Source: Candidatus Pelagibacter communis (GTDB lineage: Bacteria > Pseudomonadota > Alphaproteobacteria > Pelagibacterales > Pelagibacteraceae). Taken from it: a stretch of DNA of 64,000 nucleotides. The position numbers and the translations under genes are program-made. Below, piece by piece: positions 1,439-11,765 of this stretch. The DNA lies in contig NZ_CVSI01000058.1 in assembly GCF_001179985.1 (NCBI RefSeq), forward strand, positions 124,001-188,000, given 5' to 3'. The notes beneath the pieces are model-generated. The model did not search any database. It worked only from the letters and a program-made list of their open reading frames with translations, and was not told where the DNA came from. How positions within the stretch are numbered: the first letter of the stretch is position 1; each line of letters begins with the position of its first letter.

Positions 1439-2388
1439 TGGACATTGAAGAAAAATTTTTAAAAGAATTTGTTAAAGTTACACAACAAGCATCAATAGCA
1501 ACACTTCCCAAAATTGGAAAAAAGAACAAAAATGAAGTGGACAAACTTGCAACAGATGCCATGAGAAAAGTTTTAAACAATATTGAAATGAAGGGAAGAG
1601 TTGTAATAGGAGAGGGAGAAATAGATGAAGCCCCAATGTTATATATTGGTGAAATTTTAGGAAATAATGACTTTCCAGAAATAGACATCGCTGTTGACCC
1701 CTTAGAGGGTACAAATTTTGCTGCTAATAATTTACCCGGGGCTTTGTCAGTTATTGCCGCTTCATACAAAAATAATTTATTAAATGCTCCAGAAACTTAT
1801 ATGAATAAAATAGCTTACGGATCTGATATAGAAAAAGGGGTTATTGATTTAGACTATGATTTTTCAAAAAATATAAAAAATTTGGCTGATTTTAAAAATA
1901 AAAAACTTGAGGACATAACTATATGTATTTTAGACAGATCTAGGCATAAAGATATTATTGAAGAAGCTGAAAAATTAAAACTAAAAACTAAATTAATTTC
2001 TGACGGAGATGTTTCAGGCGCACTATTAGTAACAGACAAAAAATATGAAGTAGATCTTTTTTTAGGTATAGGTGGTGGACCAGAAGGTGTTTTAGCTGCA
2101 TGTGCACTTGATGCTTATAATTGTGGTTTTCAAGGTCGATTTATATTTGATGATGATATTGCAACTAAAAGAGCAAAAGATATGGGCATCGTTGATTTAG
2201 AAAAAAAATATGAATTAAAAGATATTGTTAGAGGAGACAGCATATTCTGTGCTACGGGAATTACAAACGGCGAATTAGTCAAAGGTATAGAAATATCTGG
2301 TGATTATTTTATGACAGATACTTTTGTTACTCACAAAAGCAGGAACATTAAAAAAAAAATACAAGAGAAAGTACAAAAAATTACATGA
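1438..2388 (+). CDS. glpX: Class II fructose-1,6-bisphosphatase GlpX
   Basis: A 316-residue class II FBPase that hydrolyses fructose 1,6-bisphosphate to fructose 6-phosphate in gluconeogenesis. Diagnostic motifs are IGEGEIDEAPMLY (57-69), the metal-binding DPLEGT (87-92), a DRSRH stretch near residue 165 and GIGGGPEGVLAA (about 211-222). Length matches the family. It is coupled on both sides: TAATG overlap with the transporter upstream and ATGA overlap with recJ downstream. In many alphaproteobacteria glpX sits in a hom-glpX-recJ run; here hom is about 9.6 kb away on the other strand, beyond the accessory region. Confidence 0.97.
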   Translation: MDIEEKFLKEFVKVTQQASIATLPKIGKKNKNEVDKLATDAMRKVLNNIEMKGRVVIGEGEIDEAPMLYIGEILGNNDFPEIDIAVDPLEGTNFAANNLPGALSVIAASYKNNLLNAPETYMNKIAYGSDIEKGVIDLDYDFSKNIKNLADFKNKKLEDITICILDRSRHKDIIEEAEKLKLKTKLISDGDVSGALLVTDKKYEVDLFLGIGGGPEGVLAACALDAYNCGFQGRFIFDDDIATKRAKDMGIVDLEKKYELKDIVRGDSIFCATGITNGELVKGIEISGDYFMTDTFVTHKSRNIKKKIQEKVQKIT

Positions 2389-4070
2389 TATCTGTCTCAG
2401 GAAATAAATGGTCTGAGAGAAAATTAAATAATAGGATTATTGAAAAAATATCTGTAGATAATAACTTATCATACGATTTATCAAAACTCATTTTAGATAG
2501 AAATTATTCATTTGATGAGATAAAAGAATTAGATAACGAATTTCAATTAAATAATCCCTTTTTTAATAACAAGGACTTTTTGAAAGCTAAAAATTTATTA
2601 ATAAACATTATTAAAAAAAAGGAATTAGTTTTAGTTTATGGTGATTATGATGTTGATGGAGTTTGTTCTACTGCAATTTTAGTAAATTTTTTAAATTATA
2701 TTAAAATTCCAAATTATTATTTAATTCCAAATAGATTCGATGATGGATATGGTCCTAATTTAGACTTAATAAAAAAAAACTTAAAAAAAAATACAAAAAT
2801 TGTAATTTTTGTAGATTGTGGGAGTAATTCTACAGAAATTGTTAATTTTTTAAAAAAAAAAAAAATAGAAGTATTAATAATAGACCATCATCATATTAAC
2901 AATAAAATTTCATCAACATTAAATATGATAAATCCGATGAAAAATCCCAAAGATTATATGGGACAGAATATTTGTGCTGCTGCATTAACCTTTTATTTAA
3001 TAAATTTTTTGAATAATGAATTAAAAAAAAAAATTAATATTTATGATTTTCTTTTTTTTGCACTTTTAGGAACTATTTGTGACCTTATGCCCTTAAGACA
3101 TTCAAATAAACATATTTCAAAGATTGCTTTAAATAAATTTAATAAAATTGAAAATCCAGGTATTAAACAGTTATTAAACTTCTTATCTTTAAAGAGATCA
3201 GTCAACTATACAGATATTTCTTATTCTATAGGTCCAATGATTAATTCACCAGGTAGACTAAAAGATGCAAAACTTTCTGTTGAATTACTTTGTTCAAAAA
3301 ATTTAAATAGAATTAAAAAAATCGTAGAAGAAATACAAATTTTAAATCTTAAGAGAAAAAAAATTGAAAATTTTTGTATTAACCTTATAGATTTAAAAAA
3401 ATACGAGAATAATAAAGAAGTCATATTCGAAGAAAATGAATTATTTCACGAAGGTATTTTGGGTATTATTGCAGGTAAATTAAAAGACAAATTAAATAGA
3501 CCTGCTTTTGTAATCACAAAGTCTTTTAATTTTTATAAAGGTTCAATTCGATCTACTCGTCAATTTAAATTAAATAATTTATTAAATAAATTATTAAATT
3601 TTAAACTTATAGAAAGTGGGGGAGGTCATAATATGGCTGCTGGTTTTGTAGTAAAAAAAGAAAATTTAATTAAATTAAAAGAATTCATAAATACAGAATA
3701 TCGAAAGTCAAAAAAAATAAATACTTTTTATTATGATTTTAAAAAATTATTACCCAAAGATGATTCTTCTATCTTTATTGATTTAAAGAAATTAGAACCT
3801 TTTGGTCACGATAACCAACAGCCGTTATTTTTATTTGAAAATCTTAAGTCTATTAAAACAAAAATTATTAATAATCGACACATAAATTGTATTTTAAAAA
3901 ATAAAGAAAAAAGATCATTTCAATCGATCGCATTTGACGCAGTTAATACATCAATTGGTAATTATTTAGTTAATTATAAAAAAAAATTTAGTTTAATTGG
4001 CACTATTGATCAATATTTTTGGGATGGTAAAAAAAAAAATCAAATTATTATAAAAGATATATTGATATAA
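2385..4070 (+). CDS. recJ: Single-stranded-DNA-specific exonuclease RecJ
   Basis: A 561-residue 5'-3' single-strand exonuclease of the DHH family, acting in recombination and mismatch repair. The N-terminal catalytic domain carries the YGDYDVDG motif (85-92), an Asp-containing FVDCGSNS stretch near 145 and the IDHHH motif near 166-170. The DHHA1 subdomain shows GGGHNMAAGF near residue 417, followed by the C-terminal OB-like part. Length is normal for RecJ. The start codon overlaps the glpX stop as ATGA. The gene ends the operon, and tRNA-Glu begins 50 bp downstream. Confidence 0.97.
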   Translation: MISVSGNKWSERKLNNRIIEKISVDNNLSYDLSKLILDRNYSFDEIKELDNEFQLNNPFFNNKDFLKAKNLLINIIKKKELVLVYGDYDVDGVCSTAILVNFLNYIKIPNYYLIPNRFDDGYGPNLDLIKKNLKKNTKIVIFVDCGSNSTEIVNFLKKKKIEVLIIDHHHINNKISSTLNMINPMKNPKDYMGQNICAAALTFYLINFLNNELKKKINIYDFLFFALLGTICDLMPLRHSNKHISKIALNKFNKIENPGIKQLLNFLSLKRSVNYTDISYSIGPMINSPGRLKDAKLSVELLCSKNLNRIKKIVEEIQILNLKRKKIENFCINLIDLKKYENNKEVIFEENELFHEGILGIIAGKLKDKLNRPAFVITKSFNFYKGSIRSTRQFKLNNLLNKLLNFKLIESGGGHNMAAGFVVKKENLIKLKEFINTEYRKSKKINTFYYDFKKLLPKDDSSIFIDLKKLEPFGHDNQQPLFLFENLKSIKTKIINNRHINCILKNKEKRSFQSIAFDAVNTSIGNYLVNYKKKFSLIGTIDQYFWDGKKKNQIIIKDILI

Positions 4071-4120: not shown

Positions 4121-4195
4121 GGTCCCTTCGTCTATCGGTTAGGACACATGGTTTTCATCCATGAAAGAGGGGTTCGATTCCCCTAGGGACCGCCA
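4121..4195 (+). tRNA. tRNA-Glu (anticodon TTC)
   Basis: Acceptor stem GGTCCCT (4121-4127) pairs with AGGGACC (4185-4191), followed by discriminator G and encoded CCA (4193-4195). Anticodon stem CATGG/CCATG encloses loop TTTTCAT, anticodon TTC at 4154-4156. Its last 36 bases are repeated at 4837-4872, so this tRNA is the insertion site of the small element described below. Confidence 0.97.
4160..4195 (+). repeat. Left att-like core: 3' part of tRNA-Glu
   Basis: These 36 bases, from the 3' strand of the anticodon stem to the CCA, recur identically at 4837-4872. A duplication of a tRNA 3' end up to the CCA is the classical mark left by a tyrosine recombinase that integrates an element and restores the tRNA. 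Confidence 0.88.
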
Positions 4196-4198
4196 CTA

Positions 4199-4216
4199 GT
4201 TGCTAGATACAGCAAC
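4199..4216 (+). terminator. Small hairpin just downstream of tRNA-Glu
   Basis: GTTGCT (4199-4204) pairs with AGCAAC (4211-4216) across a 6-nt loop, starting three bases after the CCA. There is no clear T-run after it, so it may be a weak terminator or processing signal for the tRNA transcript, or simply part of the element end. Confidence 0.3.
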
Positions 4217-4250
4217 ACTTATTTAAATAATTGTGCTAAAAATTTCTCAC

Positions 4251-4271
4251 TGGGCACACTGTGGGCACACT
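4251..4271 (+). repeat. Paired TGGGCACACT repeats, left end of element
   Basis: Two direct copies of TGGGCACACT (4251-4260 and 4262-4271) separated by one G. A near-identical pair lies at 4758-4777. The left pair starts 55 bp from the left core and the right pair ends 59 bp before the right core. This is how arm-type integrase binding sites flank a core site; that role is an inference. Confidence 0.6.
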
Positions 4272-4273
4272 GG

Positions 4274-4279
4274 TATAAT
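4274..4279 (+). promoter_or_regulatory. TATAAT -10 element, probably leaderless
   Basis: A perfect TATAAT ends six bases before the ATG at 4286, so the expected transcription start falls on or next to the start codon. No consensus -35 is seen upstream; the GGGCACACT repeats occupy that position. The mRNA would be leaderless. Confidence 0.5.
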
Positions 4280-4285
4280 CATTAA

Positions 4286-4729
4286 ATGAAAAAACTTTTA
4301 GGGATCGTGGTTCTAGGTTTGTTGATAAGTACTAGTTCTTTTAGTCAATCAATGGTCAGTCTTAAAACTTACATGGAGAAAAATTATAATGATAAAGATT
4401 TCATTTATTATACTTATTATAGATGTACGGCTGTTTTGAATTATGCAAGAAGATCTACAACAGATGAAGAATTACGAAATAAATTTAAGGAAGCCGCTAA
4501 TGCTATAATGTCTTTTAGCATGAGAGTATTGTCAAAAAATATGAAATTGGATGCTGAGATTGCAATTCAAAGAGTTACTGATCATGTTGAATTAATACAC
4601 AGAAATTATATTAAGGATGGATATGAGTATCACGCAAAAACTGGCAATTATTTGACACCATATATGAAATCAGATTTGCTAATTTGTAAAGAATTATTCG
4701 AACCAATTATGAAAGATATTTTAGAATAA
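4286..4729 (+). CDS. Small secreted protein of unknown function, cargo of the mini-element
   Basis: I do not recognise this 147-residue protein. It starts with a clear Sec signal peptide: MKK, a hydrophobic core to about residue 16, and a likely cleavage near 18-22. The mature part of about 125 residues is Lys/Glu/Tyr-rich and mostly helical in appearance, with only two cysteines (C47 and C134) that could form a disulfide in the periplasm. A YYTYYRC stretch lies at 41-47. It is the only intact gene between the duplicated tRNA-Glu ends. No ribosome binding site is visible and a TATAAT lies just upstream, so expression from a leaderless mRNA is likely. Predicted location: periplasm or outer surface. 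Confidence 0.75.
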   Translation: MKKLLGIVVLGLLISTSSFSQSMVSLKTYMEKNYNDKDFIYYTYYRCTAVLNYARRSTTDEELRNKFKEAANAIMSFSMRVLSKNMKLDAEIAIQRVTDHVELIHRNYIKDGYEYHAKTGNYLTPYMKSDLLICKELFEPIMKDILE

Positions 4730-4734
4730 CCTAA

Positions 4735-4794
4735 ATGAAAAAACTTTTAGTGATTGCGGGCACACTCTGGGCACACTTGATTCTAATTTTTTGA
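4735..4794 (+). pseudogene. Signal-peptide remnant of a second secreted-protein gene
   Basis: The first 16 coding bases and the three bases before them are identical to the start of the 147-residue gene: 19 bp at 4732-4750 equal 4283-4301. The reading frame gives a signal-like start (MKKLLVIAGTLWAH) and stops after 19 residues. The right-hand GGGCACACT pair lies inside it. It may be a truncated paralogue left by recombination between tandem copies, or a repeat with no coding role. Confidence 0.4.
4758..4777 (+). repeat. Paired GGGCACACT repeats, right end of element
   Basis: GGGCACACT (4758-4766) and TGGGCACACT (4768-4777) lie in direct orientation, separated by one base. They match the pair at 4251-4271 in sequence, spacing and orientation. 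Confidence 0.6.
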
Positions 4795-4836
4795 TTTTGA
4801 AGTTGAAAAAAGCTATAAAATACAATGTTAATGATT

Positions 4837-4872
4837 CATGAAAGAGGGGTTCGATTCCCCTAGGGACCGCCA
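4837..4872 (+). repeat. Right att-like core: displaced 3' end of tRNA-Glu
   Basis: A 36-bp exact copy of 4160-4195, including T-arm, acceptor 3' strand and CCA, but with no 5' half of a tRNA before it. It lies two bases before the ATG of the GIY-YIG gene, so it is the original chromosomal tRNA end displaced by the insertion. Confidence 0.88.
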
Positions 4873-4874
4873 GT

Positions 4875-5138
4875 ATGAAATATTACGTTTATTTAATAGT
4901 AACAACACATACAAAAAGTAAAAAGGGGCTTTCTTATGTTGGGTGCACAAATAATATTAAAAAAAGACTATTTTTACATAACAATTCTAAAGGTGCTAAA
5001 TTCACTAGAGGGAGATATTGGCAACTTGCTTATACTAAGGGGTATGAATCTAAAAATATTGCTTTAAAAGAAGAATATATACTTAAACACAATTATAAAT
5101 TAAGAACCAAAATTAAAAAACTTTTTTTAGATAAATGA
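4875..5138 (+). CDS. GIY-YIG domain endonuclease-like protein (UPF0213/YhbQ type)
   Basis: An 87-residue single-domain GIY-YIG protein. The GIY position reads YVYLI (4-8) and the YIG position YVGCTNN (21-27). The catalytic-type Arg (R31), His (H35), the family pattern KGAKFTRGR (39-47) and a downstream Glu in LKEEYILKH (64-72) are present. Members of this small-family branch have been linked to DNA repair or nuclease activity, but the substrate is unclear. It begins two bases after the displaced tRNA-Glu end, so the insertion put new sequence directly upstream. Its stop overlaps the next start as ATGA, making it the first gene of a five-gene coupled run. Confidence 0.88.
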   Translation: MKYYVYLIVTTHTKSKKGLSYVGCTNNIKKRLFLHNNSKGAKFTRGRYWQLAYTKGYESKNIALKEEYILKHNYKLRTKIKKLFLDK

Positions 5139-10811: not shown

Positions 10812-11765
10812 ATGAATGAACTGACAACAGATCTAAAATCGCTTCATGAGGCAACTTTAAATAACCTCAAAAGTTCAAAAGCAAATAACACTTTAAGAGC
10901 ATATAAATCAGACTTTAAAGATTTTGGAGCTTTTTGTGCTAAGCATGGTTTAAATTCGTTACCATCAGAACCTAAAATTGTTTCTTTATACCTAACTCAT
11001 CTTTCTAAAAATTCAAAAATCAGTACTTTAAGAAGAAGATTAGTGTCAATTAGCATGGTCCATAAACTAAAAGGTCATTATTTAGATACAAAACATCCAA
11101 TTATTGTTGAAAATTTAATGGGAATAAAAAGGGTAAATGGAAGCATTCAAAAAGGAAAAAAACCTATATTAATCAATCATTTAAAATCAATAATTAATGT
11201 AATTGATGAACAAAAAATTGAGGACATAAAGAAGTATAGAGATAAATCAATAATCTTAGTGGGCTTTGGAGGTGGTTTTAGACGAACTGAGCTAATTTCA
11301 ATTGATTATGAAGATTTAGAATTTGTACCTGAGGGGATCAAAATCACTGTTAAAAGATCAAAAACTGATCAATTTGGTGAAGGGATGATTAAAGGACTGC
11401 CCTACTTCACTAATGAAACTTATTGTCCAATTATTAATCTTAAAAAATGGTTAGAAATTTCTAGAATTAAATCTGGACCAATTTTTAGAAGATTTTCAAA
11501 AGGTTCATCATTAACTGACAAAAGATTAACTGATCAATCAGTAGTTTTATTAATGAAAGAATATTTAAATTTAGCAGGTATAGAAAATAAAAATTTCGCA
11601 GGTCATAGTCTAAGATCAGGTTTTGCAACTGTCGCTGCAGAGTCTGGTGCTGATGAACGTAGTATAATGGCAATGACTGGTCACAAAACAACTCAGATGG
11701 TTAGAAGATACATAAGAGAATCTAACATATTTAAAAATAATGCCTTAAATAAACTCAAAATTTAA
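10812..11765 (+). CDS. Tyrosine recombinase / site-specific integrase
   Basis: A 317-residue phage-type integrase. Residues 1-105 form the SAM-like core-binding domain (NTLRAYKSDFKDFGAFC at 26-42). The catalytic domain carries the full active site: R157 in GFRRTEL, the K183 region, H265-x-x-R268 in HSLRSG, H291 in GHK and nucleophile Y300 in RRYIRE. Length and motifs indicate an active enzyme. It stands alone: no excisionase, phage gene or recognisable att pair is adjacent. The nearest possible target is the tRNA-Glu mini-element 6 kb away, but no third att copy is seen here. Its 3' end lies one base from the convergent glycosyltransferase gene. Confidence 0.93.
   Translation: MNELTTDLKSLHEATLNNLKSSKANNTLRAYKSDFKDFGAFCAKHGLNSLPSEPKIVSLYLTHLSKNSKISTLRRRLVSISMVHKLKGHYLDTKHPIIVENLMGIKRVNGSIQKGKKPILINHLKSIINVIDEQKIEDIKKYRDKSIILVGFGGGFRRTELISIDYEDLEFVPEGIKITVKRSKTDQFGEGMIKGLPYFTNETYCPIINLKKWLEISRIKSGPIFRRFSKGSSLTDKRLTDQSVVLLMKEYLNLAGIENKNFAGHSLRSGFATVAAESGADERSIMAMTGHKTTQMVRRYIRESNIFKNNALNKLKI

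Follow-up and report, generated by a model that had tools for sequence, protein, structure and literature searches.

What moves a stretch of DNA that is bounded by duplicated tRNA ends and carries no integrase of its own? SAR11 bacteria are among the most abundant bacterial groups in the ocean, and their genomes are streamlined with few known mobile elements. The window analyzed here is a 64,000-nucleotide stretch of Candidatus Pelagibacter communis, and forms part of a 945-kb draft genome that is 75.5% complete. A preliminary description had proposed that a 677-bp insert lies between identical 36-nt ends of tRNA-Glu, with an intact tRNA on one side, its displaced 3′ end on the other, and the right copy of the repeat two bases before a GIY-YIG gene. 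Each of these points is confirmed by the following features (positions are those of the window).

4121 to 4195, + strand: intact tRNA-Glu(ttc), the target gene, on the attL side (ARAGORN)
4160 to 4195, + strand: left 36-nt copy of the core repeat, the 3′ end of tRNA-Glu (exact repeat)
4199 to 4216, + strand: terminator-like hairpin directly after the tRNA, within the element
4837 to 4872, + strand: right 36-nt copy of the core repeat, the displaced 3′ end of tRNA-Glu, attR (exact repeat)
4875 to 5138, + strand: GIY-YIG gene, 87 aa, the host gene beside the site (Pfam PF01541)

The core copies lie 677 nt apart with zero mismatches, and the base adjoining them differs on both sides. The right copy ends at 4872 and is followed by GT and then by the GIY-YIG ATG at 4875. 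By arithmetic, about 3e-10 exact 36-nt repeats are expected per 64 kb at the base composition of the window. A chance repeat was dropped as an explanation, as was an assembly artefact given that seven independent records contain such an element. The 677-bp insert at tRNA-Glu with its duplicated core is real. The arrangement of an intact tRNA on one side and a copy of its 3′ end on the other is found in the window and in six further carriers, with a few mismatches in the right core of one of them (AG-435-I03). The hairpin after the tRNA is weak or absent in some of the other elements.

Is the same site unoccupied in related genomes? We surveyed 399 genomes of the genus for the 27-nt core with up to one mismatch. 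The core is present in 276 genomes, as one copy in 273 and as two copies in three (the window genome, G011 and G368); a decayed second copy, like that of AG-435-I03, would escape this survey, and the arm pair described below occurs in no other genome of the 399. An ancestral fixed duplication was dropped in view of these single-copy genomes. All of the 19 single-copy loci that were inspected are empty: each has a single core, and GGGCAC does not occur in the 200 nt that follow the CCA. The GIY-YIG gene is about 75 nt or less from the CCA in 16 of the 19, its match starts no more than 5 nt after the CCA in 12, and it was not found in three. In five comparisons of occupied and empty loci, made against two empty genomes, the host sequence restarts right after the CCA. 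AG-435-I03 is 98% identical to the empty locus of G205 upstream and 90.8% identical downstream of the right core, compared to 44.8% when the element left end is used instead, and the four carriers with end types B and C (defined below) are 96-98% identical to the empty locus of G080 upstream and 86-91% identical downstream. The preliminary description had named one arrangement shared by every related genome as the finding that would overturn it, and this is not the arrangement observed. In the window, a recJ-like gene (2385-4070) lies between glpX and tRNA-Glu; it was detected in four of the 19 empty loci and not in the G011 and G368 loci.

If the insert is an integrated element, its ends may hold the sites on which an integrase acts. 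An inner direct-repeat pair, GGGCACACTNTGGGCACACT, which was overlooked in the preliminary description, lies inside each end of the element.

4252 to 4271, + strand: left candidate arm-type pair, GGGCACACTGTGGGCACACT, 56 nt inside the CCA (repeat search, motif scan)
4758 to 4777, + strand: right candidate arm-type pair, GGGCACACTCTGGGCACACT (repeat search, motif scan)
4778 to 4836, + strand: conserved right end, type A, common to AG-426-E17 and AG-435-I03

The left and right repeats are near-identical and direct. Of the 399 genus genomes, two contain the strict pair GGGCACANNNTGGGCACA and three the degenerate pair GGGCACNNTNTGGGCACNNT. The degenerate pair has exactly two sites per genome, and all six of these sites lie at ends of tRNA-Glu elements. 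The reversed control pattern of GGGCACNNTNTGGGCACNNT has no match in the same 399 genomes. GTDB species genomes were then scanned for a tRNA-like end with GTTCGA, the CCA and an arm pair 32-62 nt further, which returned 19 loci: six Pelagibacteraceae records, all at tRNA-Glu, and 13 others. An integrase ORF has its near edge 40-500 nt inside in seven of the 13 non-SAR11 loci; no integrase was detected in the stretches examined for L193, L197 (only 292 nt), L200, L201 and L204, and the match at L205, which lies inside a gene, is probably due to chance. Six acidobacterial loci (L189-L191, L194, L195 and L204) have the tRNA and arm-pair layout at tRNA-Asp, with an integrase just inside in five of six, and two Acinetobacter loci (L198 and L200) have it at tRNA-Leu, with an integrase just inside in one of two. 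These loci appear to be islands with the arm motif of the SAR11 elements.

Together with the window, the six Pelagibacteraceae carriers give seven SAR11 elements of 677-1,964 bp, all at tRNA-Glu. Their ends fall into three types, A, B and C, which are names coined in this analysis.

Window element: 677 bp, end type A
AG-426-E17 element: 1493 bp, end type A
AG-435-I03 element: 1564 bp, end type A
AG-892-J03 element: 1594 bp, end type B
AG-422-F10 element: 1639 bp, end type B
AG-900-P18 (G011) element: 1845 bp, end type C
AG-894-A03 (G368) element: 1964 bp, end type B

The geometry of the ends is nearly fixed. The right pair lies 71 or 72 nt from the core TTCGA in all seven elements, and the left pair lies 45 nt from the CCA in four elements and 56 nt from it in the other three; the two distances differ by 11 nt, about one helical turn. 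A nucleoprotein complex of a tyrosine integrase that spans arm and core sites would require phasing of this kind. Judged by sequence, layout and association, the core appears to be flanked by arm-type sites, as in an element that targets a tRNA gene.

The same motif is found in viruses. An arm-type pair is present in 121 IMG/VR stretches, 45 of which hold a detected integrase. A tyrosine integrase lies within 1 kb of the motif in 38 of the 121, whereas 14.9 such cases would be expected if the positions in these stretches were random, and no integrase was found within 1 kb in the remaining 83. In eight viral stretches, two pairs lie 211-266 nt apart; both pairs share a strand in every case, with no opposite-strand example. 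Three of the eight have a like spacing (218), possibly through relatedness. Examination of six two-pair stretches by eye revealed a tRNA-like TTCGA core between the pairs in three and the TTCAA form in one. An actinobacterial prophage has one pair that overlaps the 3′ end of its integrase gene and a second pair at the far end, and its integrase has an Arm-DNA-bind_4 domain (Pfam). Among five motif-associated integrases (L189, L191, L196, L144 and L103), an arm-binding domain is present in two, one of them below the Pfam cut-off. Two same-strand pairs around a tRNA-like core correspond to the layout of an attP, and from this layout and the association with integrases, we read the inner pairs of the SAR11 elements as putative arm-type sites of a tyrosine integrase.

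How the elements came to be distributed among SAR11 hosts can be approached by comparing the ends with the host DNA around them. Outside the element, the window and AG-426-E17 are 73.9% identical in the 150 nt upstream of the tRNA and 73.7% identical in the 150 nt past the right core. The element ends are 90.8% identical on the left (shuffled background 45.7%, maximum 53.6%) and 95.7% identical on the right, and the element middles, of unequal lengths, do not match (28.8%). In addition, AG-900-P18 has type C ends only 53-61% similar to the type B ends, in a host that is 92-96% identical upstream to the type B hosts. In a glpX tree of the seven carriers and 19 empties, the occupancy label needs four changes, three of them forced by well-supported branches. 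The carriers fall into two clades, with end type A in one and types B and C in the other. The principal argument against rapid spread between clades is this tracking of host clades by end types, with which vertical inheritance of the ends and replacement of the cargo would be compatible. The tracking also fits a history in which a few old integrations were followed by exchange of cargo or of the whole locus through homologous recombination, with no present site-specific movement. The conserved flanking genes agree with that history, as does a cargo leader conserved at the DNA level (below), which could be a handle for cargo exchange. However, homologous exchange should carry the flank along, and the sharp change in similarity at the core between the window and AG-426-E17 therefore counts against it, though selection on the ends could also yield such a change. 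The type C ends of AG-900-P18 in a host so close to those with type B ends argue in the same direction, and we regard this passive history as distinctly unlikely.

The absence of an integrase, claimed in the preliminary description for the window, extends to the whole family: none was found within any of the seven elements in the ORF lists or in PF00589 searches of the seven genomes. The integrase match at L188 is the 317-aa host recombinase described below, which lies outside the element. What the elements carry instead is varied, and in the window consists of the following.

4251 to 4279, + strand: promoter-like site, with a −35 TGGGCA (the first arm repeat), a 17-nt spacer and an extended −10, TGGTATAAT
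4286 to 4729, + strand: cargo gene, 147 aa, with a signal-like start (ORF list); ATG 14 nt after the left pair
4736 to 4757, + strand: probable remnant of a second cargo gene start, which runs into the right arm pair (repeat search)

The cargo gene at 4286-4729 is the sole sizeable gene between the cores, and its start resembles a signal peptide by eye. Two cysteines are invariant in an alignment of the window cargo with 11 relatives, and the predicted structure is helical with a mean pLDDT of 84. We found no PDB fold match at E ≤ 0.001, no Pfam family (best E 0.13) and no PADLOC family for this protein; NCBIfam (E 0.01) and PHROG (E 0.0088) matches were disregarded as weak. Relatives at 22-29% identity occur elsewhere in SAR11 genomes. 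No tRNA-Glu end was found in their stretches, and among L003-L013 only L004 has a tRNA. A second copy of the cargo start at 4732-4759 (89% over 28 nt) is probably the remnant of a lost second cargo gene. The preliminary description's view that the insert carries only a gene for a small secreted protein is correct for the window and does not extend to the other elements. AG-435-I03, AG-892-J03 and AG-422-F10 carry trypsin-like proteases (Trypsin_2) with signal-like starts, the middles of the latter two elements being 60% alike, and AG-900-P18 carries a T5orf172/MUG113 protein with a small partner. The remaining cargo consists of ORFs without a family, with several small ORFs in some elements, and in AG-894-A03 the cargo is in the opposite orientation. 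In PADLOC, RT-Protease_XI is matched in its protease part by the three cargo proteases, which also match certain further models. The AG-900-P18 protein matches PDC-S57, a candidate defence model, at 8.2e-24, and the match covers its T5orf172 part. The cargo may have a role in defence, although we do not adopt this reading.

The first 29 nt of the window cargo gene, ATGAAAAAACTTTTAGGGATCGTGGTTCT, encode an MKKLLGIVV leader and have exact or near copies in six of ten SAR11 genomes scanned, both in elements and in chromosomal genes (window 4286-4314; L199 1666-1694 and 1902-1930; G385:C1:829624; G298:C1:764736). This leader may be a recombination handle for swapping secreted cargo. The chromosomal leader genes adjoin tRNA genes, namely tRNA-Leu in L241 (G298) and tRNA-Thr in L242 (G385), and L242 has further small secreted-looking genes beside the leader gene. 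L241 and L242 are possible further hotspots.

The cargo is positioned precisely with respect to the left end. In five of the seven elements, an extended −10 TGnTATAAT (TATAGT in one) lies at a constant offset in a promoter-like layout, in which the first arm repeat provides the −35-like TGGGCA and the spacer measures 17 nt, and the cargo ATG is exactly 14 nt past the left pair and 6 nt past the −10. The exceptions to the layout are AG-894-A03, with its inverted cargo, and AG-900-P18. A scan for the promoter consensus found seven sites compared to 5.9 expected in shuffles and is weak by itself; what suggests a promoter is that the position stays constant in five elements whose cargo differs. 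With the −10 only 6 nt before the ATG, a leaderless cargo mRNA is predicted. Moreover, the left arm repeat coincides with the −35, and an integrase and RNA polymerase are therefore predicted to compete for the same DNA.

Could these elements instead be scars of larger islands or prophages at tRNA-Glu that have lost everything but the att ends and a few genes? The preliminary description had offered the scar of a larger prophage as one option. Elements of this kind are described in PMC5704250 as CIMEs, which are flanked by att sites, are defined as having lost integration and transfer genes with attL and attR kept, lack a recombinase, and are viewed there as relics of islands. The SAR11 elements resemble CIMEs in that att sites are retained, no integrase is present in any of the seven, and no transfer gene was recognized among the cargo scanned. 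The truncated second gene start in the window copy and the altered right core of AG-435-I03 also point toward decay. Unlike CIMEs, however, the SAR11 family has common end types, a fixed geometry, a size of 0.7-2.0 kb and varied cargo. Separate decays would need to halt at equal spacing with both arm pairs intact, and in five of the seven elements 4-12 nt separate the cargo stop codon from the right pair (by arithmetic; 28 nt in the window, with AG-894-A03 inverted). No larger or integrase-bearing element between two cores, and no larger relative at tRNA-Glu that could be an ICE or IME source, was found among the 276 site-bearing genomes (at most one mismatch); the ORF lists showed no remnant of an integrase, and no tandem ICE or IME partner was seen. 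An origin as scars fits less well with seven elements that share end types and spacing around different open-frame cargo, and we consider it rather unlikely.

An integrase acting in trans would have to come from elsewhere. No arm pair lies beside an integrase in the SAR11 genomes scanned, and no autonomous relative of the elements was found in scans of SAR11 genomes, IMG/VR and INPHARED. The core occurs in 12 IMG/VR stretches, 11 of which hold it inside an intact tRNA-Glu gene (ARAGORN), ten of these within phage tRNA clusters; L068 has a lone tRNA-Glu near a contig end, and in L069 the locus ends within the core, next to a tRNA-Arg. These stretches yielded no helper, nor did the INPHARED core matches, which are only 17 tRNA-Asp genes of Caulobacter phages. 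Searched as an exact string, a 26-nt piece of the type A right end has no match in IMG/VR, where the tRNA-plus-arm pattern occurs in two stretches (examined with ARAGORN). The carriers AG-422-F10 and AG-892-J03 possess phage-type integrases near tRNA-Leu(tag), tRNA-Leu(gag) and tRNA-Met (L223 5550-6890, L224 2895-4136 and L225 3300-4577, respectively), in loci that are probable prophages or islands. With no arm pair in the stretches examined, these integrases were rejected as helpers on present evidence.

A tyrosine recombinase of the host is encoded 6 kb from the window element.

10812 to 11765, + strand: SAR11 tyrosine recombinase, 317 aa, SAM_1 and Phage_integrase domains, outside the element (Pfam)

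That this enzyme is itself the helper would agree with its presence in ten of ten near-complete genomes (67-94% identical to that of the window) and in six of seven carriers, and with its position about 1-8 kb from tRNA-Glu in the ten genomes with both positions recorded on the same contig. It is the sole PF00589 match in eight of the ten near-complete genomes, with others present in G082 and G253. However, the protein appears Xer-like, having SAM_1 and a catalytic domain without an arm-binding domain by Pfam, and the arm-type pairs point to a three-domain integrase. It also occurs in genomes without any element, and it was not detected in the carrier G368 (86% complete), the only match there being another protein. 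We therefore judge the host recombinase highly improbable as the helper and favor a phage-borne integrase, which we infer would act from outside the element.

Phage satellites (PICI, P4-like and PICMI) and the marine VEIMEs and tycheposons are presented in PMC10803314 and PMC11389934 as small, site-specific, cargo-carrying and helper-dependent, some of them being marine. According to the account in PMC10803314, known satellites need the integrase and excision factors they encode, whereas none of the seven SAR11 elements has an integrase and no excision, replication or packaging genes were recognized in them. Tycheposons as described in PMC10872708 measure 4-200 kbp and have a tyrosine recombinase, unlike the SAR11 elements of 0.7-2.0 kb with no recombinase. 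CALIN arrays and integron cassettes are small gene units moved by an integrase in trans in the description of PMC11389934; the SAR11 elements differ from these in their tRNA-Glu core, the arm pairs at their ends, the presence of one unit per site and a promoter-like site of their own. MITEs, characterized in the same source as short, non-autonomous and recognized via their end sequences, differ from the SAR11 elements, which carry protein genes, occupy one tRNA gene only and have direct, tRNA-derived end repeats. For SAR11 itself, PMC2217521 reports that HVR2 has an integrase gene, that tRNA genes border HVR4 and that attC is lacking; no counterpart to such cassettes appears among these observations. 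A search of open-access papers by title and the start of the abstract returned no description of such elements, with subscription papers mostly outside this scope.

Taken together, we think it quite probable that the elements are non-autonomous SAR11 cargo cassettes, flanked by att sites, that depend for their movement on an integrase provided in trans. The preliminary description had suggested a minimal cargo element moved in trans. Its first part is borne out by seven elements with common end types and spacing and with different open cargo; its second part, the helper not having been found, keeps the standing of an inference. Each cassette comprises a core that equals or nearly equals the 3′ end of tRNA-Glu, a left end, a right end and exchangeable cargo, and each end has one putative arm-type pair whose spacing from the core is fixed, at 45 or 56 nt for the left end and 71-72 nt for the right. 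In the mechanism we propose, circularization would join the ends into a compact attP in the order pair, core, pair, with 159 or 171 nt between the pair starts. Integration and excision of the cassette would then be carried out in trans by an arm-binding tyrosine integrase, most likely from a phage or other mobile element. In most members, the left arm pair would double as the −35 of the extended −10 promoter and the cargo mRNA would be leaderless, such that the cargo would be expressed once integrated and would be off while the integrase sits on the left arm pair. A wider reading, which we offer tentatively and regard as somewhat short of probable, is that SAR11 possesses a standardized, integrase-free cassette system, in which genes that often encode secreted proteins are plugged at a fixed offset into a 159-171-nt attP-promoter module with one tRNA target. 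As the arm sites in such a system would double as the cargo −35, the helper integrase would both move the cassette and switch its cargo.

We know of no att-defined cargo carriers smaller than these elements of 0.7-2.0 kb. How SAR11 bacteria gain and swap genes is an open question, and the cassettes would give them a defined route of gene exchange. They also point to an integrase whose target, tRNA-Glu, and arm sites can be predicted. The cassette ends can be used to seek the helper and to count occupancy in metagenomes, and may possibly serve as an insertion site for genetic tools.
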